A DNA stretch of 34,968 nt from Bryobacterales bacterium (GTDB taxonomy: Bacteria; Acidobacteriota; Terriglobia; Bryobacterales; Bryobacteraceae): positions 1 through 34,968 of the forward strand of contig JADLCF010000062.1 in the NCBI GenBank assembly GCA_020847315.1. Direction: 5' to 3'. The notes under the pieces were generated by a model, which searched no databases, was not told where the DNA came from, and worked only from the letters and a program-made list of their open reading frames with translations. Shown here one piece after another: positions 10,748-23,681 of the stretch (position 1 is the stretch's first letter; every line of letters starts with the position of its first letter). A program made the position numbers and the translations under genes.

Positions 10748-13700
10748 TTAGCGCAGTCCCGCGAGTTCCTGCAACCGGCGCCAGTTCTGGAGGCGATTCT
10801 CGTTCGCCGCCGCGAGCGCCGTGCCCGCCTTCCGGCCCGTGCCGAAATAGGGAGCAAAGCGTTCTTCGGTTCTCGCGAAGCTGATGAAATCGAGGGGCGT
10901 GGCATCCGTCCCCGGCGCGTACCAATCCTGCCGGAGCACTGGGTTGCCGGAAAGACTCAATTGCTCGCGCAGGTAGCTCCCTTCCCTGGGATCGAGCATC
11001 AGGAGCGGGAAGGTGCGGCTCTCGACCGCCATCTTCGCCTGGGCCATCGCCTTCTCTTCAGAGACGCCATCCTCCGCCATGCAAGTCGCATAGCAGATCA
11101 CCACGGCCGGGCCGGAGAACTCGTTGGCCGCGCGGATGGCGCGATGGAAATGGTTAAGGTGAGAAGCGGTGGTTTGGGCCACCATCACATTCGGGAAGGC
11201 CATGGCGATCTGCGCCAGGTCCGTGGTGGGTTGAAGGCTCAGTTCCTCGCGCGCGCCCACGCCGCCGTTGCCTTGCGAGTGGAAGGCCGCGCCGTGAATG
11301 CGGCGGCTCTCGCAGGCGAACACCTGCGAATCGAGCACGAGCACGTTGATATCCTCGCCCGAACTCAGAAGCACGGTAAGCGCGGAAAGGCCGGCGCCGC
11401 CGAAATTCTCCATGCTACCGAGCACCCAAAGCTTGCGGCCTTGATTGCCTTCGCGATCCCAACTCCGGCGGATCCCCAAGGCATCGGCGGGCGCGTTGCC
11501 GGAGAGGGTGTTGGTCCAAGGCACGTTGTAAGGATTGTAGGGGAAGACGGCGCCATAGACGCTATCGCAGCCCGAAGCGGCGACCACGCCGACATGATCC
11601 GCTCCGTACTGGAAGCCCGTGGAAGCAAGCAGCAGACGAACGGCGGTGGATTGTCCGCAACCGGAGCAACTGGAAGTGCCGCCGGCGGCGAGCTGCGCGC
11701 GGGCGCTCAACAGGATATCGCCGAGAGAGCGCTCGGAAAGGAAACGCTCCGGCGTATCGGGAAGGTTTCGGAACAGTTCCATCCCACGGTCAACCATTGC
11801 AAGGTCGAGGCTGGATTTCGGTTTCATCGCGATCGCTTCGTGCATCCCGCAAGCGTCCACGCACTCGGCGCAACCTTTGCAACGGTCGGGATCGACGAAG
11901 AGCGCCAGCATGCCGCCCTTCTCCTTACGCTCCAGAAAAGCTTCCCAGTAGCGCCGTGTTTTTCCGAAGGATCCGGCCATGCGGCCGCGCAGTTCGGTAT
12001 CTTCGATCGCGCCAAGAGCGCGCGTGACTTCCTCCGGCTCCACCACGCGCCCGACGATGGCGACATCCGGGCACACGACGACGCATTCCATGCAGCCGAC
12101 GCAGCGCTCCATATCGATCACCGGAATTTCCGGCGCATCGTGGCGCAGGCTTCGAATGAGATCCGTCGCGGGCAGCGCGCTGGCCCTCGCCGCGGCATCG
12201 GCCGCCTCCGCGCTGGAGCGGTTGGGGCAAGCGCCGGCGCCGATAATCTGCTCGCAGAAGTTTGCGTCGAGTTCGATGACCGCCCCCGCGGACGCCACAA
12301 CTCCATTCGGTCCCGTGGCCATGGGCGCGCCGATCACCGGCAGGCCGGTACTCACCGGGATCTCCACTTTGTCCGCTGGAACCGTGAACCGGAGCATGGA
12401 GAGGTATGCCTTCTTCACGACGTCGTAGCTTGCGTCAATCGCGGCATCGCTCGCCTGGGGGTAGAGGCGCCCGAGGCATTCGATCATGAGGTGATAGACT
12501 TCCTGCTCGGCTAGTTTGCTTTCCTTGAAAAAGGAACTGATGCGGAGCCAGGCGCCGAGCGCCACCAAGTCTCCCCAGGCGCCCACGGCGTCGATGGCCG
12601 TGGCGGGGTTGGAGACGCGCGCGCGGTCAAGGCCGGAAACGCGGATGCCGCGTTCCTGAATCTCCCGCTTCCCGCTTGCGGGCAGGATGCGCCAGAGATC
12701 CTCAATCGAACGGGCGAAGGGGCAGAAGAGCACGCCACCATCCATCACCAGCGAGACCGGATTCCCCGCATGGAGCAATCCGGCGGATTCCACCACGACA
12801 AGCTTGGCTTTGGTTTCGCGCGCGCTGGGCCGCGGACCGCTGGACGCGGCGGCCAGCCGGAGCGTGATGGGCTTGCCCACCTTCTCCGTGCCGGCGTCAC
12901 CCTCCGCATCGATCCGTAAGCCGAAGAGCGCACGCGAGATCGCGGCGATCATCCGGATTGCGTTAGCCGCTCCGCCGCCTCCCGCGCGGACAAGGGCGAG
13001 GCCGGTGTGGGGCGCGACCGCACCGGGGCTGGAAGTCACGCGATGCTCGGGAGAAGTAGCGAACGCAGGCGGCAACCCATCCGGCCGGACGACGGATGCG
13101 GGGAGAACGACGGCGGCGATCGCATGCTCGACAGCATCGACGAACTCCCGTTCCGGCACGCGGGTGGCGCCGATGCCCACGGCTCTCGTGAAGAGCCGGA
13201 GACCAGCGCCGCGAGCGGACGGAACCAGAGGACTCACGCCGAGAGAGGCCGATACCGCGAGGGTCAGGGGATTCGCGGGAGATAGCGGTATATCCGTACG
13301 TTCCAGCACGCTCACGGTAAGTGCGTTCGCCAGCATCTCGCGAAGGGCGTCCGCAGGGAACGGGCGAAATGCGCGAATCGTCACGGCTCCGGCCAGGACA
13401 CCTCTCGCCCGCAACCCGTCCACCGCGCGGCGGGCATCCTCCATCATGGAACCGCAGCCGAGCAGCACGTGTTCCGCGTCATCGAGCAGATAGCCTTCGG
13501 CTCCCGCGACCAGACGCCCCGTGAGACGCGCGTACTCGTCGATCGACGCCTGGAAGGCCGCGGCGGCGCGGCCCAGGAAACCACGCTGCGCCAAGCGCGC
13601 CGCGGCATAGTCGGCTTCCTCCTGGACGGGACTGAGCATGGTTGGACGCCGGGGGTTGAAGTAGTTGCGGAGTTTCTCCTCGGCCTCCCCCACGAACAGG

Positions 13701-14335
13701 CGCATCAGATCCGGCTCCGGCAGCAGCACGTCCTGGATCTGGTGGGTGGTGGCGTAGGCATCCTGCACGACGAAGAAGGGGGTTTCCGCATACTCGGCGG
13801 CGCGGCGGCAGATGAGGGCGAGATCCGCCACTTCCTGCGCGTCGCAAGCAAACACGATGCCCCAACCGCAATCGTCAACGGAGAAGATATCGTCATGGCC
13901 CGTGCGGGTGGCGAGAGCCTGGGACTGCAGCGCGCGCGCCCCGGCATGGAAGACCATCGGCAGCCGTTTCCCGGCAATGGTGCGGAGCGCTTCGTTCATC
14001 GCGGGTAGGGCCTGGCCGGATGCAAAACTCACGGCGCGGCCACCGGTGAGCGCGTATCCTTCGCAGATGGAAGCCGCATCCTGCGGAGACTCGGCGCGGA
14101 GCGTCTCCAGCGGCTGCTGCCAAAGATTGCGGACTCCCCGCCCCACCAAATCTTCAAATGCTTCCGCCATGGCGCGGGCGGGGTGCACGGGATAGCTCGA
14201 AGCGGCCTGCGCGATGTGGCTTTCCACCCAAACGGCGGCGCCTGCGCCGTCCGCAACGGAGGCGATGCCCGGAAACCGACGAAACGGAATCTGAGTGTTC
14301 CTGACTTCTTGTCCGGAGGGGGCGGTTCGGATCAT
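10748..14335 (-). CDS. nifJ: Pyruvate:ferredoxin (flavodoxin) oxidoreductase-like protein, single chain, divergent
   Basis: This 1195-residue protein has the full NifJ domain order. The N-terminal thiamine-pyrimidine domain has E82 at the usual TPP-activating position and R134 in HAGARAL. Next come domain II, a gamma domain (TGLPVIGAPMATGPNGVVASAGAVIELD), and a two-cluster ferredoxin domain with CVGCMECVVVCP near residue 743 and CKGCAECVDACG near 817. A C-terminal thiamine-diphosphate domain starts with CSGCGQ near 888. NifJ couples oxidative decarboxylation of pyruvate or another 2-oxoacid to reduction of ferredoxin. Several normally fixed motifs differ: YPITPS reads YPVHPA (48-53), the Mg-site GDG region reads LGSMENFGG (about 970), and the NTGGQ loop after DTEVYS is replaced (DSQVFACESRR, about 1000). 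An altered substrate is therefore likely. AAAGGAG lies just upstream of ATG 14335. Confidence 0.85.
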   Translation of the reverse strand: MIRTAPSGQEVRNTQIPFRRFPGIASVADGAGAAVWVESHIAQAASSYPVHPARAMAEAFEDLVGRGVRNLWQQPLETLRAESPQDAASICEGYALTGGRAVSFASGQALPAMNEALRTIAGKRLPMVFHAGARALQSQALATRTGHDDIFSVDDCGWGIVFACDAQEVADLALICRRAAEYAETPFFVVQDAYATTHQIQDVLLPEPDLMRLFVGEAEEKLRNYFNPRRPTMLSPVQEEADYAAARLAQRGFLGRAAAAFQASIDEYARLTGRLVAGAEGYLLDDAEHVLLGCGSMMEDARRAVDGLRARGVLAGAVTIRAFRPFPADALREMLANALTVSVLERTDIPLSPANPLTLAVSASLGVSPLVPSARGAGLRLFTRAVGIGATRVPEREFVDAVEHAIAAVVLPASVVRPDGLPPAFATSPEHRVTSSPGAVAPHTGLALVRAGGGGAANAIRMIAAISRALFGLRIDAEGDAGTEKVGKPITLRLAAASSGPRPSARETKAKLVVVESAGLLHAGNPVSLVMDGGVLFCPFARSIEDLWRILPASGKREIQERGIRVSGLDRARVSNPATAIDAVGAWGDLVALGAWLRISSFFKESKLAEQEVYHLMIECLGRLYPQASDAAIDASYDVVKKAYLSMLRFTVPADKVEIPVSTGLPVIGAPMATGPNGVVASAGAVIELDANFCEQIIGAGACPNRSSAEAADAAARASALPATDLIRSLRHDAPEIPVIDMERCVGCMECVVVCPDVAIVGRVVEPEEVTRALGAIEDTELRGRMAGSFGKTRRYWEAFLERKEKGGMLALFVDPDRCKGCAECVDACGMHEAIAMKPKSSLDLAMVDRGMELFRNLPDTPERFLSERSLGDILLSARAQLAAGGTSSCSGCGQSTAVRLLLASTGFQYGADHVGVVAASGCDSVYGAVFPYNPYNVPWTNTLSGNAPADALGIRRSWDREGNQGRKLWVLGSMENFGGAGLSALTVLLSSGEDINVLVLDSQVFACESRRIHGAAFHSQGNGGVGAREELSLQPTTDLAQIAMAFPNVMVAQTTASHLNHFHRAIRAANEFSGPAVVICYATCMAEDGVSEEKAMAQAKMAVESRTFPLLMLDPREGSYLREQLSLSGNPVLRQDWYAPGTDATPLDFISFARTEERFAPYFGTGRKAGTALAAANENRLQNWRRLQELAGLR

Positions 14336-16513: not shown

Positions 16514-17416
16514 CTAGCCGCCCCGCGCGGTCAACTCGAAGGGTTCCGAGGCTGCCTGCACGGGGTGCTCCGAAGAGCTTGGCAAACTATCCCGCGTGAT
16601 CGAAAGCACGGGACAGGAAGCATGGCGCAGGAGCGCGTCAAACGCGAAACCGGCCCCCGGGATGTCGCCTCGCTCCCTCCGAAGCGCCACGACGAGGTTC
16701 GCCCGATGCTGCCGAATGGCTGCGCGGAGGCCCAGGTAGGGGGCGGTTGCGTTTGCCGTCGACTGGTTGGGCACTCGCAGAGATTCCCCCAGGCGGTTCA
16801 GTTGGCCGAGCAAGGCTTCGGCCGTTTGGCGTCTGAGACGGCTCCCGGACCGATCAAACAAGAAACCTTCATTCGCCCTGGGCGCCGCTGCGTATAGTAT
16901 CAACTCGCCGCCCGACGGTTCCGCCAAGGATTGGGCATACTCCACCAGGAGGCGGTCTTCTTCTTCCCCAAGGCCGAGCATGCAGAGAATGCGGGGGTGG
17001 GCATGGAAGCGGGATCGCTCCACCCTCCCGAGGTTGCCCGCAAGAACCGGCTTGCCGGTGGCTTCCACGATTTTCTCCGCCATGGATGCGCGCCAAAGCC
17101 GCCGCCATAGGGATCGCGCGCCACCACTCAACACAATCAGATTCGCATCGACAAACGCCGCGTATCGCGCCACCGCTTCGGGCACTTCCCCATGGACGAC
17201 GGCGCGATGGACCACGCAAGGAGGATTCGTGCGGGTCATCGCGCATTCCGGCCAGCTAAGCCCCGAATTGCGTTTGCCGAGCCGGCGGGAATTCACGACA
17301 TGCAACAAAGTCAGTTCCGCTTCCAATGCCGCGGCGATATCGATGGCGTATTGCGCCCGCTGTTCGAAATCGCCTTGCAGTTGGATGGGCGCGAGCACCC
17401 GCTCAAATGCAAACAT
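16514..17416 (-). CDS. Tandem universal stress protein (second Usp of the window)
   Basis: This protein has 300 residues with two UspA-like domains. Domain 1 (about 1-130) starts FERVLAPIQLQGDFEQRAQYAIDIA. Its glycine loop, LSGGARSLWRRLWRASMAEKIVE, lacks the ATP-binding G-2x-G-9x-G pattern. Domain 2 (about 138-280) starts HPRILCMLGLGEEEDRLLVEYA, and the region LVVALRRERGDIPGAGFAFDALLRHASCPVL replaces the usual loop. Both domains are thus more likely nucleotide-independent. GGGAGG precedes ATG 17416 at good spacing. It lies 106 bases downstream of the DksA-like gene on the same strand. It may share that gene's sigma-54 promoter, since I found no good promoter of its own. Confidence 0.88.
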   Translation of the reverse strand: MFAFERVLAPIQLQGDFEQRAQYAIDIAAALEAELTLLHVVNSRRLGKRNSGLSWPECAMTRTNPPCVVHRAVVHGEVPEAVARYAAFVDANLIVLSGGARSLWRRLWRASMAEKIVEATGKPVLAGNLGRVERSRFHAHPRILCMLGLGEEEDRLLVEYAQSLAEPSGGELILYAAAPRANEGFLFDRSGSRLRRQTAEALLGQLNRLGESLRVPNQSTANATAPYLGLRAAIRQHRANLVVALRRERGDIPGAGFAFDALLRHASCPVLSITRDSLPSSSEHPVQAASEPFELTARGG

Positions 17417-17522
17417 TGGAAACCTCCCGAAGTGAGATCAAAGCTTCGCCTCCGCACCGGTGTCTCGAATCCCAGGCGTATCGACGATGGGCATCTTGCA
17501 ACCCGGTGGGTGCAGCGCCCAA

Positions 17523-17906
17523 TTAGGGCGAGAACGCGAATCGCGCCTTCTCGGATCCCTGCCCGGCATCCTTCCGTTCCTGGCACACGACGCAATAGGA
17601 CGCCCATGGCACGGCGCGAAGGCGCGCGGGGGCAATCGCTTCGTCGCACTCAAGGCAAAGGCCGAACTCGCCCGATTCAATCCGGGATAGGGCTGCGTCG
17701 ATAAGCCGGATCTTGATCGCCTGCTGGTCTTTACGTTGGAGCGTGACGAACTGCTCCTGGAACGCGGCCGCCTGATCCGCGGAATCGCCGGCGCCGATGG
17801 TAGGCGGCGGCTCCGACTGGCGGCGCTCCCACTCCATTTGCGATTTCTCGTCAAGTAACGCATGCCGGAATTCGGCGATGGGGTCAAGTACCTTTGTTCT
17901 TGGCAT
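17523..17906 (-). CDS. DksA/TraR-type C4 zinc-finger protein
   Basis: This 127-residue protein has a helical N-terminal part (about 10-80, with a coiled-coil-like run EFRHALLDEKSQMEWERRQ) and a C4 zinc finger: C84-x2-C87, then C105-x2-C108 (LCLECDEAI ... YCVVCQE). The PIAEFRHALL to ALSRIESGEFGLC arrangement is that of DksA/TraR proteins. Those bind the secondary channel of RNA polymerase and tune promoters during starvation, often with ppGpp. The acidic coiled-coil tip of E. coli DksA cannot be confirmed here. GGGAGG at 17914-17919 lies seven bases before ATG 17906; a tandem ATG at 17909 is the alternative. A strong sigma-54 promoter lies immediately upstream. Confidence 0.88.
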   Translation of the reverse strand: MPRTKVLDPIAEFRHALLDEKSQMEWERRQSEPPPTIGAGDSADQAAAFQEQFVTLQRKDQQAIKIRLIDAALSRIESGEFGLCLECDEAIAPARLRAVPWASYCVVCQERKDAGQGSEKARFAFSP

Positions 17907-17930
17907 CATGCAGCCTCCCGTTCGCAACTA

Positions 17931-17946
17931 AGCAAGTAGATGGCCA
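17931..17946 (-). promoter_or_regulatory. Sigma-54 (-24/-12) promoter for the DksA-like gene
   Basis: Minus-strand reading TGGCCA-TCTAC-TTGCT has GG and GC ten bases apart and matches the consensus TGGCAC-N5-TTGCA/T except in the last two bases of the -24 box. The predicted start is near 17920, directly before the GGGAGG ribosome site (17914-17919), so the leader would be only about 14 bases. Orientation and position fit the gene. Confidence 0.65.
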
Positions 17947-17971
17947 ATCTTTCCGCACCGGTTCCATACGG

Positions 17972-18000
17972 GGGCGCGAGGCTCGCGAGGAACCGCGCCC
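17972..18000 (-). other. GC-rich hairpin between rnk and the DksA-like gene
   Basis: GGGCGCG (17972-17978) pairs with CGCGCCC (17994-18000); a small CTCGCGAG palindrome lies in the loop. It follows the rnk stop (18023) on the minus strand and could end or weaken rnk transcription before the next promoter. There is no T run, so termination is uncertain. Confidence 0.35.
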
Positions 18001-18022
18001 GCGCGCAAGGCGAGGGAGCCCG

Positions 18023-18445
18023 TTAGCTCTCAATCGGCACTCCTTGCGATTCCGGCTGATACAGAACTTCCACGACCTCCAGACGCCGGATTCCCCGGGG
18101 GACCGGCCACTCAATGACGTCGCCCACGCGGTAGCCCAGCATAGCGGTTCCGATGGGAGCCAGGATCGAAACGTCGTTGCCTTTCCGCTCCTGTGTCGGG
18201 AAGATGAGGCGGTATTCTCTCATCTCGCCGCTATCCAGATCCTTCAGCCGGGCGCGAGAATTCATCGTGATCACGTCGCCCGGCAGCGCATCCTGTTCCA
18301 CAATCTCCGCCCGGTCCAGTTCCTGAGCCAGCCTGCCGACACTTTGCGCATCGGACCCGCTGAACGCTCTTCCACCATCGACGAGCGGCCGCAGTTTTTC
18401 ATAGTCACTCTTCGTGATGACAATGTTGTCTCGCACCGTTTTCAC
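18023..18445 (-). CDS. rnk: Rnk / GreA-GreB family RNA-polymerase-binding regulator
   Basis: This 140-residue protein starts MKTVRDNIVITKSDYEKLRPLV, which is the Rnk-type N-terminal short helix, followed by a helical segment (about 20-50). A GreA/GreB C-terminal FKBP-like domain follows (about 55-135): LPGDVITMNSRARLKDLDSGEMREYRL, then SILAPIGTAMLGYRVGDVIEWPVP. Rnk was named as a regulator of nucleoside diphosphate kinase. Structurally it is a Gre-related protein that binds RNA polymerase but lacks the long coiled coil needed for transcript cleavage. The GTG start at 18445 is chosen because AGGAGG sits six bases upstream; the longer frame to 18469 would put the ribosome site inside the gene. 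A sigma-54 promoter at 18543-18558 points at it. Confidence 0.88.
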   Translation of the reverse strand: MKTVRDNIVITKSDYEKLRPLVDGGRAFSGSDAQSVGRLAQELDRAEIVEQDALPGDVITMNSRARLKDLDSGEMREYRLIFPTQERKGNDVSILAPIGTAMLGYRVGDVIEWPVPRGIRRLEVVEVLYQPESQGVPIES

Positions 18446-18542
18446 AATAATCCTCCTGGCCGCAAACACAGCTTGGGCAAACGGAATGCCGCCATATAGC
18501 TACACCCGTGCCGCCGGTTCCGGATACTGTCGGAATCTCTGT

Positions 18543-18558
18543 AGCAATTTGCATGCCA
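18543..18558 (-). promoter_or_regulatory. Sigma-54 (-24/-12) promoter for rnk
   Basis: Minus-strand reading TGGCAT-GCAAA-TTGCT differs from the consensus TGGCAC-N5-TTGCT only in the last base of the -24 box. GG and GC are exactly ten bases apart. The predicted start is near 18532, giving a leader of about 87 bases to GTG 18445. Confidence 0.78.
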
Positions 18559-18631
18559 CAATCCAAATTCTTCTCCCGCATTCGATTTGGCGGAATTATG
18601 GACGACTTACGCAGTTCCTCTGCCTGTAAAC

Positions 18632-18678
18632 GCACAGTTGTGCCCGATTAGGGGCCAAACACGCTGTGCCCGTGCACG
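18632..18678. promoter_or_regulatory. Candidate activator-binding dyads (enhancer) between the divergent sigma-54 promoters
   Basis: GCACA-GT-TGTGC at 18632-18643 is a perfect inverted repeat. About 34 bases on, GTGC-CCGT-GCAC at 18666-18677 overlaps the palindrome CGTGCACG (18671-18678). The two centres lie about 121 and 88 bases upstream of the predicted plus-strand start, and about 105 and 139 upstream of the minus-strand start. Those are normal distances for a sigma-54 enhancer. The sites are short and their link to the activator is inferred. Confidence 0.4.
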
Positions 18679-18732
18679 AGGATCGGGCGCGCTTCATCGG
18701 GCCAAGTCTATGGAGGCCTTCCCGCTCCCGAT

Positions 18733-18748
18733 TGGCCCACAAATTGCA
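18733..18748 (+). promoter_or_regulatory. Sigma-54 (-24/-12) promoter for the DUF302 gene and operon
   Basis: TGGCCC-ACAAA-TTGCA has GG and GC exactly ten bases apart and a perfect -12 box. The predicted start is near 18759, about 53 bases before ATG 18812, with the AGGGAG ribosome site in between. Confidence 0.78.
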
Positions 18749-18811
18749 ACGACATGGAACAGATACCGTAGTTAACAAAGTCTGCATTGTTGCAAGGGAG
18801 ATTCGACCGAA

Positions 18812-19240
18812 ATGATTTCCGATCCACGCTCCGTCACGTTCCACTTGCCTGTTTCCTGCCGCTCCGCGGTGGCTCAGGTGAAGCGGGCGTTGGAGAAGGA
18901 CGGGTTGCGAGTTCCGGCGGAGATGAACGTGGCGTCCCACATTCGGGAGGAATTCGGCGCAACCCTCACGCCAAGCTTTGTGCTGTACGTGGACGATCCG
19001 GCCCTGTTGCTGGAAGCGGTGATTTATCAGCGGGATGCCGCGATGCTCATCCCGCAGCCCGTGTCGATCTCGGGGAATGGTCACGCATCGGAGATCGTAC
19101 TTCGAAGCGCGGAAGCCCTCCGAGATATGGGAATGCCCCCTGTCGTCCGGGATTCCGTCCTCGAACTGCATTCCCGGATCGTCCGGGCCATGGATTCGAT
19201 CGGCGAGCGGGAGGCCCTTCCGCAAATCGCGCAATGCTAA
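18812..19240 (+). CDS. DUF302 domain protein
   Basis: This is a 142-residue soluble protein. Residues about 8-90 follow the DUF302 pattern: a strand (VTFHLPVSCRSAVAQ), an amphipathic helix (VKRALEKDGLRVPAEM), a second helix (NVASHIREEFGATLTP), a strand with SFVLYVDD, then PALLLEAVIYQRDAAMLIPQPVSI. The canonical domain has a conserved cysteine after the third strand (…GACNP…), which is absent here (VLYVDDPAL). A C-terminal helix (about 100-135, EALRDMGMPPVVRDSVLELHSRIVR) is an extra. The role of DUF302 is unknown; the fold often occurs near redox and stress genes. AGGGAG precedes ATG 18812. It is the first gene after a strong sigma-54 promoter, followed by the small membrane protein 36 bases later. 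Confidence 0.75.
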   Translation: MISDPRSVTFHLPVSCRSAVAQVKRALEKDGLRVPAEMNVASHIREEFGATLTPSFVLYVDDPALLLEAVIYQRDAAMLIPQPVSISGNGHASEIVLRSAEALRDMGMPPVVRDSVLELHSRIVRAMDSIGEREALPQIAQC

Positions 19241-19276
19241 CCCTCAACCCGTGAACAAACAGAAAGGAAACTTGCG

Positions 19277-19522
19277 ATGACTACCCAGACCCGACCCCTC
19301 CACCAGGAAACCAATCCGCGGGAGTCTCTGCCGAAGCCCCCTCCAGCGGGCAACGCCAAGACGGACCGCAGCATGATGTTTCAATCCATGGGCCAGATGC
19401 AGAAGAGCTACCATGGTTCTTCCACGGTCCGCAGAGAACGAATCTTGATGTGGATTGCCGGGATCGGCGCAGGCGCGCTCATCTTTGCGCTGATTTACGC
19501 AGCCATCTTTTTCCTCGAATAG
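19277..19522 (+). CDS. Small single-pass membrane protein
   Basis: This protein has 81 residues. The first 55 are polar and proline- or glutamine-rich (NPRESLPKPPPAGNAKTDRS), followed by a basic stretch (STVRRERILMW) and one hydrophobic helix to the end (about 57-80, IAGIGAGALIFALIYAAIFFL). By the positive-inside rule the N-terminus should be cytoplasmic. AAAGGAA precedes ATG 19277. I do not recognise the family. Its place between the DUF302 gene and the kinase, 36 bases from the former, suggests co-transcription. A tail-anchored regulator or sensor partner is possible, but nothing in the sequence proves it. Confidence 0.75.
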   Translation: MTTQTRPLHQETNPRESLPKPPPAGNAKTDRSMMFQSMGQMQKSYHGSSTVRRERILMWIAGIGAGALIFALIYAAIFFLE

Positions 19523-19527
19523 CACCC

Positions 19528-19544
19528 AGAGCGAATGTCGCTCT
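19528..19544 (+). terminator. Short perfect hairpin after the small membrane protein gene
   Basis: AGAGCGA (19528-19534) pairs with TCGCTCT (19538-19544) around ATG, five bases after the stop. There is no T run. A longer-range pair follows: TGAGCGGCC at 19556-19564 with GGCCGCTCA at 19625-19633. The region may attenuate or process the transcript before the kinase gene. Confidence 0.4.
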
Positions 19545-19574
19545 ACCCGACCTCTTGAGCGGCCTCCGCTCCCC

Positions 19575-19590
19575 TGGATCAACCGTTGCC
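19575..19590 (+). promoter_or_regulatory. Moderate sigma-54 promoter candidate before the kinase-activator operon
   Basis: TGGATC-AACCG-TTGCC keeps the invariant GG and GC at ten-base spacing and the TTGC core, but the -24 box has two differences from TGGCAC. The predicted start is near 19601, about 124 bases before ATG 19725. If real, the sigma-54 activator gene would be under sigma-54 control itself. Confidence 0.35.
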
Positions 19591-19724
19591 GCCGCAACGC
19601 CTTTCCGCGCACCGGGGACCCAGGGGCCGCTCAGACCTCCCATCGCGAATCCGGCGCCGATTGCGCCCTGGCAACCGTCCGGGGTTAGGCTAAGAGGGAG
19701 GGTGCGGCCGGTGCGGCGTCAGCT

Positions 19725-20789
19725 ATGAGCTCGCGAGATTGGATCCCAAGCAACCAGTGGCCGGAATGGGGCGGATACGCGTCGATCGCGCTGTCGTTGG
19801 CGCTGGTCGCGTGGCTCAACTGGCTTAGCGGCGGGCTGCTTGCACCCCTTTATGCGCTCATCGTTACCCTCGCCGCGATTCGATTTGGCTGGCTTGGCGG
19901 GTTGCTTGCCGCCATTTGCTCCGGCGCGTTGCTGTTGATCGAGGCGACGCCGGCGATGGAAGCCGCGGTGGATGCCGCGACGCTGGTTGCGGTTGCGTTA
20001 AGCGTGGGTTTGCTCACGGCGCGGGAACAGCGGCGGAAGCGCCACTACAAGAACCTGGCCGAGAAGCTGGGGAATGTGTACGAGAAGGTCCAGGCGAACT
20101 TCGAAGGTATGAAGCGGGCGGAGCGCCTCTCCGCGCTGGGGCAACTCTCGGCCGGGCTTGCGCATGAAATTCGCAACCCGCTGGCCAGCATTAGCGGCGC
20201 CGCCGGGATCCTCCGCCGCAGCCAGGGCCTCGAACCGAAGCAGGAAAAATGCATCGACATCATCACCCATGAATGCAGCCGGCTGGATGGGCTGCTCACC
20301 AACTTCCTGAACTTCGCCCGGCCCCGCCCGCCCCGGTTTCAGAAAATAGACTTGCTACCCGTTCTCGAGAATGTGCTCACCCTGGCCGGACACGGCATTC
20401 GCGGCAAGCAGGTGAGCCTGGCGAACCGCGTGAAAGTGGGCCTCCCCTCCGTGGAATGCGACCCGGAGCAATTGGAGCAAGTGCTCTTGAACCTCATGAT
20501 CAACGCGATTGAGGCGAGTCCGGACGGTGATATGGTGGAGCTTGGCGCGGCATTCAGCGGTGACAAGATCACAATTGAAGTCGTCGATCGCGGACACGGG
20601 GTCGCCGCGGCGCACGTCGATCGATTATTCGACCCATTTTTCACGACCAAGGAACACGGTACCGGCCTGGGTCTCCCGGTGGCTCACCAGATCATGAGCC
20701 AAATGGGAGGATCCCTCCTGGCAAGGAAGAATTCGGGACCGGGAATGACCTTCTGCGTCGTGCTTCCATCGAAACATACCGATTCATGA
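19725..20789 (+). CDS. NtrB-like membrane sensor histidine kinase
   Basis: This protein has 354 residues. The N-terminal part has three to four closely packed helices (about 19-100, ASIALSLALVAWLNWL ... LVAVALSVGLL), with very short loops and no periplasmic sensor domain. A short coiled coil follows (HYKNLAEKLGNVYEKVQANFEGM). The HisKA domain has phospho-acceptor H147 in LAHEIRNPLAS. The ATPase domain has the N box NLMINAIEA, G1 DRGHGV, F box FDPFFTTK and G2 GTGLGL. All catalytic motifs are intact. The stop codon overlaps the activator gene by four bases (ATGA), so the two are translationally coupled and form a cognate pair. The signal is unknown; the sensor would act within the membrane or through a partner such as the small membrane protein upstream. 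Confidence 0.93.
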   Translation: MSSRDWIPSNQWPEWGGYASIALSLALVAWLNWLSGGLLAPLYALIVTLAAIRFGWLGGLLAAICSGALLLIEATPAMEAAVDAATLVAVALSVGLLTAREQRRKRHYKNLAEKLGNVYEKVQANFEGMKRAERLSALGQLSAGLAHEIRNPLASISGAAGILRRSQGLEPKQEKCIDIITHECSRLDGLLTNFLNFARPRPPRFQKIDLLPVLENVLTLAGHGIRGKQVSLANRVKVGLPSVECDPEQLEQVLLNLMINAIEASPDGDMVELGAAFSGDKITIEVVDRGHGVAAAHVDRLFDPFFTTKEHGTGLGLPVAHQIMSQMGGSLLARKNSGPGMTFCVVLPSKHTDS

Positions 20790-22186
20790 CACCGAAACGA
20801 ATCCTGGTCGCGGATGACGACGATAGCCTGCGCTGGGTACTGCAAACCCAGTTGGAAGAGATGGGTTATGCCGTATCGGCCGCGCGGGATGGGGCGGAAG
20901 CGCTTACGGAAATCGAACGGGAAGCTCCCGCGCTACTCCTCAGCGACTTGAAGATGCCCAACCTCTCCGGCATGGAGCTGCTCAAGCGGATGCAGCGGGA
21001 GCACGCCGAGATCCCCGTCGTGATGATGACCGCCTACGGAACCATCCAAAGCGCGGTGGAGGCGATGCGGCTTGGAGCGTACGACTATCTCACCAAGCCG
21101 ATCGACTTCGAAGAGCTGGGCATTGTCGTCACGCGCGTGCTCGAGCATTTCCGCCTGGTGGAGGAAGTCCGCAACCTGCGCGCCAGCCTCGATCGAAAGT
21201 ATGGCTTCGAGAGCATCATCGGGCAATCGGAACCGCTGCTGGCCCTGTTGGATACGGCATCCCGCGCGGCCCAGAGCAATTCGACCATTCTGATCCACGC
21301 CGAAACCGGCACGGGCAAGGAGTTGCTTGCGCGCGCCATCCATCTCAACAGCCGGAGGCGGGAGCGCCCGTTCGTCACGATCAACTGCGGCGCCATCCCG
21401 AGAGAACTACTGGAATCGGAGTTGTTCGGACACGTGAAGGGATCGTTCACCGGCGCGATCGGCAACAAGACCGGAAAGGTGGAAATGGCCAACGGAGGCA
21501 CGCTCTTTCTGGACGAGATCGGCGAGATGCCGGGCGAGCTGCAAGTGAAGGTGCTGCGGCTGCTGCAGGAAGGGGAACTCGAGAAAGTCGGGGCCACCGG
21601 CCCGGTGAAAGTGGATGTCCGCTTTGTTGCCGCCACGCACCGGAACCTCCACGCGATGATCGAGGACGGCACGTTCCGGGAAGATCTTTTCTATCGCCTC
21701 AACGTGATCCCACTCGAAATTCCTCCCCTGCGCGACCGGCTCGACGACGTTCCGGCGCTGGTGCAGCATTTTTTCCTGAGAGTGAAAGAACGACAGGGGC
21801 GCCCGGACCTGAGCCTCTCCCCCGCTCTGCTCCCCCGCTTCCAAAATTACCGTTGGCCTGGCAACGTCCGCGAGCTCGAGAATGTGGTGGAACGCATCGT
21901 GGTATTGGCTCGTGGCGAGGAAGTGACGCTGAACGATTTACCCGAGTTTCTGCGCCGCGAGCGGCCCGCCGTGGACGCATTGCAACTGGAACTGCCGCCG
22001 AGCGGCGTAAGCCTGGAGGGGATTGAAAAAGAACTGCTTGTCAAAGCCCTCGAACGCTTTGACGGGAACCAGACTCATGCCGCGCGGTATCTCGACATCA
22101 GCCGGAAGGCCCTGATTTACCGGATGGAAAAATACAAGATTCGCAAGAAAGGTAACGACGAGGGGGATCTCTCGGCTCCCACCTGA
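20786..22186 (+). CDS. NtrC-family sigma-54-dependent response regulator
   Basis: This 466-residue three-domain activator has a receiver (about 1-120) with acidic residues DDDD near 10-13, phospho-acceptor D54 (LLSDLKMP) and T/K switch residues MMTAYG and LTKPID. Its AAA+ domain (about 140-375) has Walker A ETGTGKE near 170-176, the sigma-54 contact loop FTGA as GSFTGA near 218 (Ser replaces the common Ala), and Walker B LFLDEIGE. A Fis-type helix-turn-helix (about 417-455) carries NQTHAARYLDISRKALIYRM. It should be able to open sigma-54 promoters after phosphorylation by the preceding kinase. Four good -24/-12 promoters lie within 4 kb, so local control is the simplest model. Confidence 0.95.
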   Translation: MTPKRILVADDDDSLRWVLQTQLEEMGYAVSAARDGAEALTEIEREAPALLLSDLKMPNLSGMELLKRMQREHAEIPVVMMTAYGTIQSAVEAMRLGAYDYLTKPIDFEELGIVVTRVLEHFRLVEEVRNLRASLDRKYGFESIIGQSEPLLALLDTASRAAQSNSTILIHAETGTGKELLARAIHLNSRRRERPFVTINCGAIPRELLESELFGHVKGSFTGAIGNKTGKVEMANGGTLFLDEIGEMPGELQVKVLRLLQEGELEKVGATGPVKVDVRFVAATHRNLHAMIEDGTFREDLFYRLNVIPLEIPPLRDRLDDVPALVQHFFLRVKERQGRPDLSLSPALLPRFQNYRWPGNVRELENVVERIVVLARGEEVTLNDLPEFLRRERPAVDALQLELPPSGVSLEGIEKELLVKALERFDGNQTHAARYLDISRKALIYRMEKYKIRKKGNDEGDLSAPT

Positions 22187-22231
22187 GCGCCTCGCCCCCG
22201 CACCGCGCCACCCGCCTCGCTCCCCTCGAAC

Positions 22232-22247
22232 TGGCCCGCGACGTGCA
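22232..22247 (+). promoter_or_regulatory. Weak sigma-54 promoter candidate before the receiver-like gene
   Basis: TGGCCC-GCGAC-GTGCA keeps GG and GC at ten-base spacing but has G for the first T of the -12 box. The predicted start (near 22258) would leave only about five bases before ATG 22263, which makes it doubtful. The -12 region contains CGTGCACG, also present in the 18671-18678 enhancer candidate. Confidence 0.25.
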
Positions 22248-22262
22248 CGAAGTTCGGGTGAA

Positions 22263-22847
22263 ATGAGAACGTTCACGCATCCCCTTCTCGCGACTCTCCC
22301 GAGTGTTCTCCTCATTGGAAAGGAATCGAGCGCCAGGGCACGATTCCATCGCGTCCTTCGCCGCGCGAAATTCCGAACATTTGTGTGTGCGCAATTGCGC
22401 GACGCCGCGGATCTGATGCACCTTGTCTCCGTCGTGGTCTGCCATCAACCGCTGCCGGAAATTCGCTGGCAGGACGTGCTGAAACACGCGGAAGCGCTTC
22501 GAAACGCGCCCAGCGTGGTGGTCACGATTCCGCGGCCGTTGACGATCGCTCTGGACGAGGCCAGCCAGGCGGGAGTATTCGCCCTCTTGGAGCCATACGA
22601 CGACACGGAACTCACCGCCCTGGTTCAACGCGCCCACGCGGAATACCAGGCGGTGCGGCAACTCGATTACGCGCATCGGGACCCGAGTGCCTCCCTCGAA
22701 CAGTTTCGCGTGGCGGTGAGCGCTCCAGCGGCCGTTCCGCCCCCGGCCAAGTGGACGGAAACTGCCAGCACTGCCCGTTTTCAGGCAGCAAAGGCGCCCC
22801 GGAGTAAGTCGTTTCCGAATACGCCGGAACCGGTTTCCGCGAGCTAG
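22263..22847 (+). CDS. Degenerate receiver-like protein of unknown function
   Basis: This protein has 194 residues. Residues about 13-125 follow the beta/alpha order of a CheY-like receiver: SVLLIGKESSARARFHRVLRRA, then FRTFVCAQLRDAADLM, VSVVVCHQPLPEIRWQDVLKHAEAL, PSVVVTIPRPLTIALDEASQAGVFALLEPYDDTELTALVQRAH. The acidic pocket is missing: the first strand has GK in place of DD, and the phospho-acceptor position reads CH (VVVCHQPLP). The switch Lys is replaced by Pro-Tyr. It should not be phosphorylated in the normal way and may act as a protein-protein module. The last 60 residues are Pro-, Ala- and Ser-rich and look disordered. It follows the activator by 76 bases. Start ATG 22263 has only a poor ribosome site. 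Confidence 0.65.
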   Translation: MRTFTHPLLATLPSVLLIGKESSARARFHRVLRRAKFRTFVCAQLRDAADLMHLVSVVVCHQPLPEIRWQDVLKHAEALRNAPSVVVTIPRPLTIALDEASQAGVFALLEPYDDTELTALVQRAHAEYQAVRQLDYAHRDPSASLEQFRVAVSAPAAVPPPAKWTETASTARFQAAKAPRSKSFPNTPEPVSAS

Positions 22848-22927
22848 GCGCTGTAAGCCGGACGCACACCGCCATTCTCCGCCGCTTTCGCGCGACTCCC
22901 GCCCGTCCCCCCGGACGTCGTTTCAAT

Positions 22928-22943
22928 TGGCAGTGCAATTGCA
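22928..22943 (+). promoter_or_regulatory. Sigma-54 (-24/-12) promoter for the helical protein and zinc-ribbon genes
   Basis: TGGCAG-TGCAA-TTGCA differs from the consensus TGGCAC-N5-TTGCA in a single base. GG (22929-22930) and GC (22941-22942) are ten bases apart. The predicted start is near 22954, with AGGAGG at about 22976-22981 and GTG 22990 downstream. A perfect 12-base palindrome, GTGCAATTGCAC (22933-22944), covers the -12 box and could be an operator. Confidence 0.78.
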
Positions 22944-22989
22944 CGGTTGGCCCATATCCGCGCAGAAGCAGAATAGGAGGCTTTCCGCC

Positions 22990-23439
22990 GTGCCCGATCT
23001 CTTTTCCGACCTTCGAGAGTGGGGAACGATCCTCAGCCAGATCGACAAGCTGAAGCGCGCCGGACGGCTGGAAGATCATCAGACGGGACTCGTCCGCATC
23101 CTGCGATACCGGTTGAACTGGCAATTGCATCATGCGGTGCTCGAAGCGATCACGGAGCTTCGAAGCCCTTCGGAAGAACTGTTGCGGGCGATTTGCGACA
23201 TCGCCGCCGACGAACACCGCGAGATCGGAACCCGTTTGCTCGCTTGCGATGCGGTGGAGTGCCTGCTTCGCCGGATGAGAAACCTCGGCGATTCCGAAAT
23301 TCTCGAACGGATCGCCTTTTCGGAGGCGCGCGCCATCCTCGGCATTTCACAACCGCCCGTAGTGCGTCAGGCCATCGAGAGATGGCTGGACCTTGAGCCG
23401 GAAGCCGCCGGAACGATCCGTTCCGAGCAAGCCGTCTAA
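22990..23439 (+). CDS. Small all-helical (HEAT-like) protein of unknown function
   Basis: This 149-residue protein is predicted to be mostly alpha-helical, with repeated amphipathic pairs: DLREWGTILSQIDKLKRAGRLEDHQTGLVRILRY, WQLHHAVLEAITELRSPSEELLRAICDIAAD, REIGTRLLACDAVECLLRRM, SEILERIAFSEARAILGI and PVVRQAIERWLDLEPEA. The pattern resembles HEAT-type repeats, a scaffold for protein binding, but I cannot assign a family. The GTG 22990 start has AGGAGG nine bases upstream. A longer frame back to 22927 would run through the sigma-54 promoter and is rejected. It is followed 29 bases later by the zinc-ribbon gene, so the pair probably forms one sigma-54 operon. Confidence 0.72.
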   Translation: MPDLFSDLREWGTILSQIDKLKRAGRLEDHQTGLVRILRYRLNWQLHHAVLEAITELRSPSEELLRAICDIAADEHREIGTRLLACDAVECLLRRMRNLGDSEILERIAFSEARAILGISQPPVVRQAIERWLDLEPEAAGTIRSEQAV

Positions 23440-23468: not shown

Positions 23469-23681
23469 ATGGAACAAGTACTTGAAGCCCCTCAAACGCA
23501 GACGGAAGATCCCCGCTATCTTTCGGCCTATCACCTGGAAAGGCTCGGCGTCACCCGGCTGAACCGCCACAATCTGCTGCTTCGTTGCCGGAATTGCGGC
23601 GAAGTGTGGAGCCCCACGCTGAATGCCGACGCCACGCTCCCCGCGGGGTACTGGCGCTGCCCCAACCACTGCAACGGTTGA
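23469..23681 (+). CDS. 70-residue zinc-ribbon protein
   Basis: The sequence has a helical N-terminal half (PRYLSAYHLERLGVTRLNRHN) and a C-terminal ribbon with C40-x2-C43 (LRCRNCGEVW) and C64-x3-C68 (RCPNHCNG), His67 lying beside the last cysteine. That is enough for one zinc site. AAGGAGAGACCC precedes ATG 23469 at good spacing. No family is recognised. Small zinc ribbons of this kind bind RNA, ribosomes or RNA polymerase, or act as redox switches; none of these is shown here. It is the last gene of the island: a strong terminator-like hairpin lies at 23733-23776. Confidence 0.72.
   Translation: MEQVLEAPQTQTEDPRYLSAYHLERLGVTRLNRHNLLLRCRNCGEVWSPTLNADATLPAGYWRCPNHCNG

Follow-up and report, generated by a model that had tools for sequence, protein, structure and literature searches.

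The DNA analysed here (the window, 34,968 nucleotides; Bryobacteraceae, Bryobacterales, Acidobacteriota) carries two divergent gene groups separated by a 366-bp spacer at 18446-18811 (Table 1). On the minus strand, rnk is followed by genes for a DksA/TraR-type zinc-finger protein and a universal stress protein (USP), whereas the opposite arm encodes a DUF302-fold protein, a small membrane protein, a histidine kinase and an NtrC-family regulator. Rnk and DksA-like proteins work in the secondary channel of RNA polymerase. Downstream of the USP gene and on the same strand, a single-chain pyruvate:ferredoxin oxidoreductase-like protein is encoded at 10748-14335. The original prediction had named the first gene of the right-hand operon a DUF302 gene. 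Pfam misses this protein, the sequence of which scores below the cut-off, as does that of an orthologue (PF03625, E 0.0097); nevertheless, the assignment is correct by fold, as the AlphaFold model was matched by Foldseek to both solved DUF302 structures, 1q9u and 1j3m, with TM 0.78/0.86 for 1q9u. The small membrane protein gene and the kinase gene are separated by a 202-bp gap, and the kinase and regulator genes overlap by 4 bases. The original prediction had placed an NtrC-type activator 2 kb away, and the regulator gene indeed begins 2.0 kb from the DUF302-facing promoter. Its product combines a receiver, a sigma-54 AAA+ and a Fis-type HTH domain, which identifies it as an NtrC-family enhancer-binding protein (EBP). 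The GAFTGA-type loop of this regulator reads GSFTGA, with F-T-G kept and the first A replaced by S.

Table 1. Genes and predicted regulatory elements of the locus (coordinates of the window).
Feature	Coordinates	Strand	Evidence or remark
Universal stress protein (tandem USP)	16514..17416	-	Pfam Usp, two stretches
DksA/TraR-type zinc-finger protein	17523..17909	-	Pfam zf-dskA_traR
Predicted sigma-54 promoter TGGCCATCTACTTGC	17932..17946	-	directly upstream of dksA/traR
rnk, GreA/GreB-type RNA polymerase secondary-channel factor	18023..18445	-	Pfam GreA_GreB and Rnk_N; NCBIfam PRK05753 above cut-off
Predicted sigma-54 -24/-12 promoter TGGCATGCAAATTGC	18544..18558	-	faces rnk; predicted start ~18532
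Candidate enhancer (UAS), two tandem dyads	18621..18657	+	conserved in 16/16 spacers; NtrC co-occurrence
First enhancer dyad TGCCTGTAAACGCACA	18621-18636	+	
Second enhancer dyad TGCCCGATTAGGGGCCA	18641-18657	+	
Predicted sigma-54 -24/-12 promoter TGGCCCACAAATTGC	18733..18747	+	faces DUF302-HK-NtrC operon; predicted start ~18759
DUF302-fold protein, first gene of the operon	18812..19240	+	AlphaFold pLDDT 87.8; Foldseek 1q9u/1j3m
Small membrane protein, 81 aa, no family	19277..19522	+	
Membrane histidine kinase (HK)	19725..20789	+	Pfam HisKA, HATPase_c
NtrC-family response regulator and sigma-54 activator, 466 aa	20786..22186	+	Pfam Response_reg, Sigma54_activat, HTH_8
Second candidate enhancer copy TGCCTGAAAACGGGCAGTGCTGGCAGTTTCCGTCCA	22752..22787	-	within 3' end of ORF 22263-22847; profile E 3.6e-5
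Predicted sigma-54 promoter TGGCAGTGCAATTGC	22928..22942	+	faces unknown ORF 22990-23439; exact box in 3/3 same-genus genomes
Unknown protein o22927	22990..23439	+	third transcription unit, own enhancer copy

Both arms of the spacer carry an exact match to the sigma-54 consensus TGGC-N7-TTGC, and the two boxes lie on opposite strands, each pointing outwards. Their positions agree with the original prediction except that each had been given one base too many: the minus-strand box TGGCATGCAAATTGC(T) occupies 18544-18558 rather than 18543-18558, and the plus-strand box TGGCCCACAAATTGC(A) 18733-18747 rather than 18733-18748. The GG-to-GC distance is 10 bases in both boxes, as had been stated. RpoN is encoded elsewhere in the host genome (E 1.2e-58). 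A crude scan of 17400-23000 revealed no sigma-70-like promoter, and Rfam gave no element around the spacer.

Such a short consensus could be matched by chance in GC-rich DNA, and exact copies are indeed frequent, with 332 in the 4.75 Mb genome compared to 191 for the reversed control pattern. Moreover, four of the eight exact copies in the window, which lie within 17.9-23 kb, are intragenic (18959, 19895, 20173 and 21171), and a reading of all eight as promoters was rejected. One of these, at 20173-20187, resembles a sigma-54 box perfectly on the antisense strand and coincides with the codons of the kinase N-box; it recurs in other genomes at these codons and is thus a coding coincidence which inflates sigma-54 box counts. 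However, the genome-wide density leads to an expectation of about 0.03 boxes in the 366-bp spacer, where two were observed, and dinucleotide shuffling of the spacer produced boxes on both strands in only 3 of 20,000 trials.

Conservation of the -24/-12 boxes in relatives had been proposed as a check of the original prediction. We compared 16 orthologous Bryobacteraceae spacers, the window's own included, which were gathered via DUF302 orthologues; a box was scored as kept when at least three of the four letters T, C, T and T of T-GG-C-N7-T-T-GC were present. Conservation was found at both arms: the box facing DUF302 was kept in 16/16 spacers (10 perfect) and the box facing rnk in 15/15 spacers having rnk (12 perfect), compared to 1/32 for inward-facing control boxes. 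Across the 16 spacers, 22 exact boxes were counted, against a mean of 0.4 (maximum 3) in shuffled spacers and 0.8 expected at the density of the surrounding loci. Given this conservation, the outward orientation and the shuffles, chance matching has a negligible probability, and by sequence comparison both spacer boxes are real sigma-54 boxes. The rnk-proximal leader (18446-18484) is near-identical in the same-genus relative BJ2 despite a much diverged spacer and possibly represents a leader element.

Between the two boxes, all 16 spacers share an element consisting of TGCCYGAAAACGCACA, 4-5 bases (N4 in the window) and a weaker second dyad TGGCCG..CCA. The dyads are 16-17 bp long each and their centres lie 20-21 bp apart (about 20.5 in the window). 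The first dyad matches the pattern TGCCYGWAARSGCACA exactly in 15 of the 16 spacers; four of these spacers (L085, L087, L090 and L092) were obtained once the pattern had been fixed, and all four proved to be exact fits. This candidate enhancer differs from the one originally predicted, namely the perfect repeat GCACA-GT-TGTGC (18632-18643) together with a second GTGC/GCAC dyad. The repeat itself is present in the window spacer, and 0.4 dyads with 5-bp arms and a gap of 2 are expected per shuffle of this spacer. As it occurs in only two of the 16 orthologous spacers, those of the window and of a near-identical strain, it was rejected as the enhancer; the GTGC/GCAC dyad is missing in the alignment with the next-nearest relative. 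The repeat is composed of the end of the first dyad and the start of the second, and the true element extends to both sides of it.

The spacing between enhancer and promoters was measured from the centre of the first dyad to the -24 GG. On the rnk arm the distances are 53-62 bp, or 70-71 bp in the window's genus, whereas those on the DUF302 arm fall into the groups 69-72, 81-83, 101-105, 113-115 or 124 bp. Along the DUF302 arm, the distances are best fitted by a period of 10.75 bp (R 0.78; p 0.0002, or 0.004 with close relatives collapsed). A concordant phase was seen for ten other regulon promoters, all located on the side of the enhancer where the first dyad lies (V-test, p 0.006); with two promoters on the other side added and the genus counted once, the V-test weakens to p 0.048. 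The clustering of enhancer-to-promoter distances at helical turns of the DNA is thus suggestive. These data also bear on the possibility that the enhancer serves one arm only and that the other box, preserved by chance, has little or no promoter activity. Although one-letter departures in some arms (TGGT or TGGA) would fit such a situation, both boxes are kept wherever the spacer has both genes, and the distances are constrained at both arms, within narrow ranges towards rnk and in helical steps towards DUF302, which makes a one-arm enhancer very unlikely.

The exact first-dyad pattern was found in 13 of 101 related genomes, the reversed control pattern twice in total. Its presence tracks the window-type NtrC: the pattern occurs in 11 of the 12 genomes encoding this regulator versus 2 of the 89 others (Fisher 6e-12, a value which ignores kinship and is inflated by shared ancestry, the co-occurrence lying within one family). 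A profile built from 29 enhancer sites retrieved two clear copies from the window's own genome, both in the window (E 3e-6 and 3.6e-5). In four genomes without a close NtrC, the best matches reached only E 0.3-1.1, compared to 1e-5 to 3e-7 in genomes having it. Frequently, no more than a few kb separate the element from the window-type NtrC gene, and the recognition helix SRKAL is common to the window-type group, while most paralogues carry SRKT or SRRT. Two genomes without a close window-type NtrC are exceptions. In G048, the two matches to the pattern fall within coding sequence and lack good boxes, whereas G031 (L101:1429-1592) carries the first dyad between divergent perfect boxes beside a gene for a protein resembling the hibernation-promoting factor (HPF).

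The latter case would be consistent with real sigma-54 promoters whose dyads are bound by another NtrC paralogue or a CRP/FNR-like dimer, the adjacent NtrC controlling something else. Several NtrC paralogues are present in family members, and the second paralogue of genome G057 adjoins similar one-mismatch sites. On the other hand, both the co-occurrence with the window-type NtrC and the frequent proximity to its gene argue for the adjacent regulator, as does the requirement of sigma-54 promoters for an AAA+ activator. Control by another regulator is therefore unlikely.

Three features of the locus had been overlooked in the original prediction: the promoter upstream of dksA/traR, the promoter of o22927 and the second enhancer copy. 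The dksA box is exact in 3/3 same-genus genomes although the letters of the spacer have diverged. The second enhancer copy is conserved in two same-genus relatives and in further family members; it lies 146-149 bp from the exact box at 22928-22942, an arrangement conserved in the three same-genus genomes. Behind o22927, a small four-cysteine zinc-ribbon-like protein is encoded (23469-23681); similar small proteins occur near the cluster in L076 and L077. That the regulon extends further within the host genome (87% complete) was rejected, as the profile gave only the two window copies above noise. In relatives, element copies precede genes for S30AE/HPF-like proteins (L087, L075, L098 and L101; for Pfam S30AE, the L101 protein scores above and the L087 protein below the cut-off) and for a USP (L102), and a one-mismatch copy precedes a gene for a Na+/H+-exchanger-type protein with a TrkA domain (L078). 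In L085 and L076, no good box was detected downstream of some secondary enhancers. In G057 (L136:9234-9412), rnk is divergently paired with a USP gene in place of DUF302, enhancer and boxes being the same, and the whole set of enhancer, boxes, rnk, HK and NtrC has the layout seen in the window.

The spacer very probably is a region of two-way sigma-54 control, in which the adjacent autoregulated HK-NtrC system binds one enhancer and activates the two arms of a growth-arrest-type regulon. Comparative genomics strongly supports two main claims of the original prediction, namely that a single enhancer serves two divergent sigma-54 promoters, probably via the nearby NtrC-type activator, and that RNA-polymerase-binding factors and the sensor operon are switched together from it. 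We propose that RNA polymerase with RpoN would wait at the two outward-facing -24/-12 promoters and that the phosphorylated regulator, the product of the fourth gene in the right operon, would bind the tandem dyads at 18621-18657. Short DNA loops from the dyads would then activate rnk, and probably dksA and the USP gene, on one side and the DUF302-sTM-HK-NtrC operon on the other, the latter resulting in positive autoregulation. At the second enhancer (22752-22787), the same regulator would act on the promoter at 22928. Whereas the elements, their conservation, orientation and spacing and the co-occurrence with the regulator were observed directly, we infer its binding and the dependence on RpoN.

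Signal and physiology are likewise matters of interpretation. HPF silences ribosomes, and a regulon of secondary-channel factors and USP, joined in relatives by hibernation-factor-like proteins and an antiporter, points to a response to growth arrest or energy stress as its most likely role. The two promoters and the shared element between them are preserved across this family of soil Acidobacteria, and the proteins switched on seem to slow transcription and translation under stress. More tentatively, one can speculate that it constitutes a Bryobacteraceae-specific sigma-54 dormancy-type regulon, in which one phosphorelay co-induces Rnk, DksA-like protein, USPs and a hibernation-factor-like protein, and in which enhancer distances evolve by whole DNA turns. 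How Acidobacteria, which are abundant soil bacteria and difficult to cultivate, stop and restart their growth is poorly understood. The system described here offers a concrete regulator and a searchable candidate binding motif, its gene list points to a coordinated slowdown of transcription and translation under sigma-54, and the natural set of spacers provides a test of the helical-phase constraint on bacterial enhancers.

Only by analogy can the system be compared with the DosR-type dormancy regulon of mycobacteria, in which a two-component system induces universal stress and ribosome-silencing proteins. It differs in using a NarL-type regulator and other sigma factors, whereas the window system would employ sigma-54 and an AAA+ activator. 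By NCBIfam cut-offs, the window regulator is neither NtrC proper (459 versus 558.6 bits) nor ZraR (393.9 of 760 bits), and the kinase likewise misses the ZraS cut-off (191.8 of 479 bits). In the literature, in which subscription papers were thinly covered, we found neither a sigma-54/DksA/Rnk/USP regulon nor Acidobacteria sigma-54 regulons on point. The closest arrangement is zraP/zraSR (hydHG) of enterobacteria, where divergent sigma-54 promoters flank a spacer with a ZraR site and one of them drives the autoregulated HK-RR operon (PMC8249747), the promoters of both arms being sigma-54 dependent (PMC3844500). As judged from the sequence arrangement, the window shares with it one regulator site between outward sigma-54 promoters, one of which would drive the regulator's own operon; however, the partner of zraSR is a single periplasmic zinc chaperone, while the arms here are rnk-dksA-USP and the DUF302 protein. 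In Desulfovibrio, one local EBP controls divergent sigma-54 operons from a site in their shared upstream region, as for the type III secretion operons/DVUA0100 and the orange protein complex (PMC4641369 and its reference 14); the likeness lies in this co-regulation, whereas regulator and genes differ from those of the window. As its architecture is already known from these systems and its regulon is, as far as we found, undescribed, the locus appears to represent a known kind of system with an unusual gene content.
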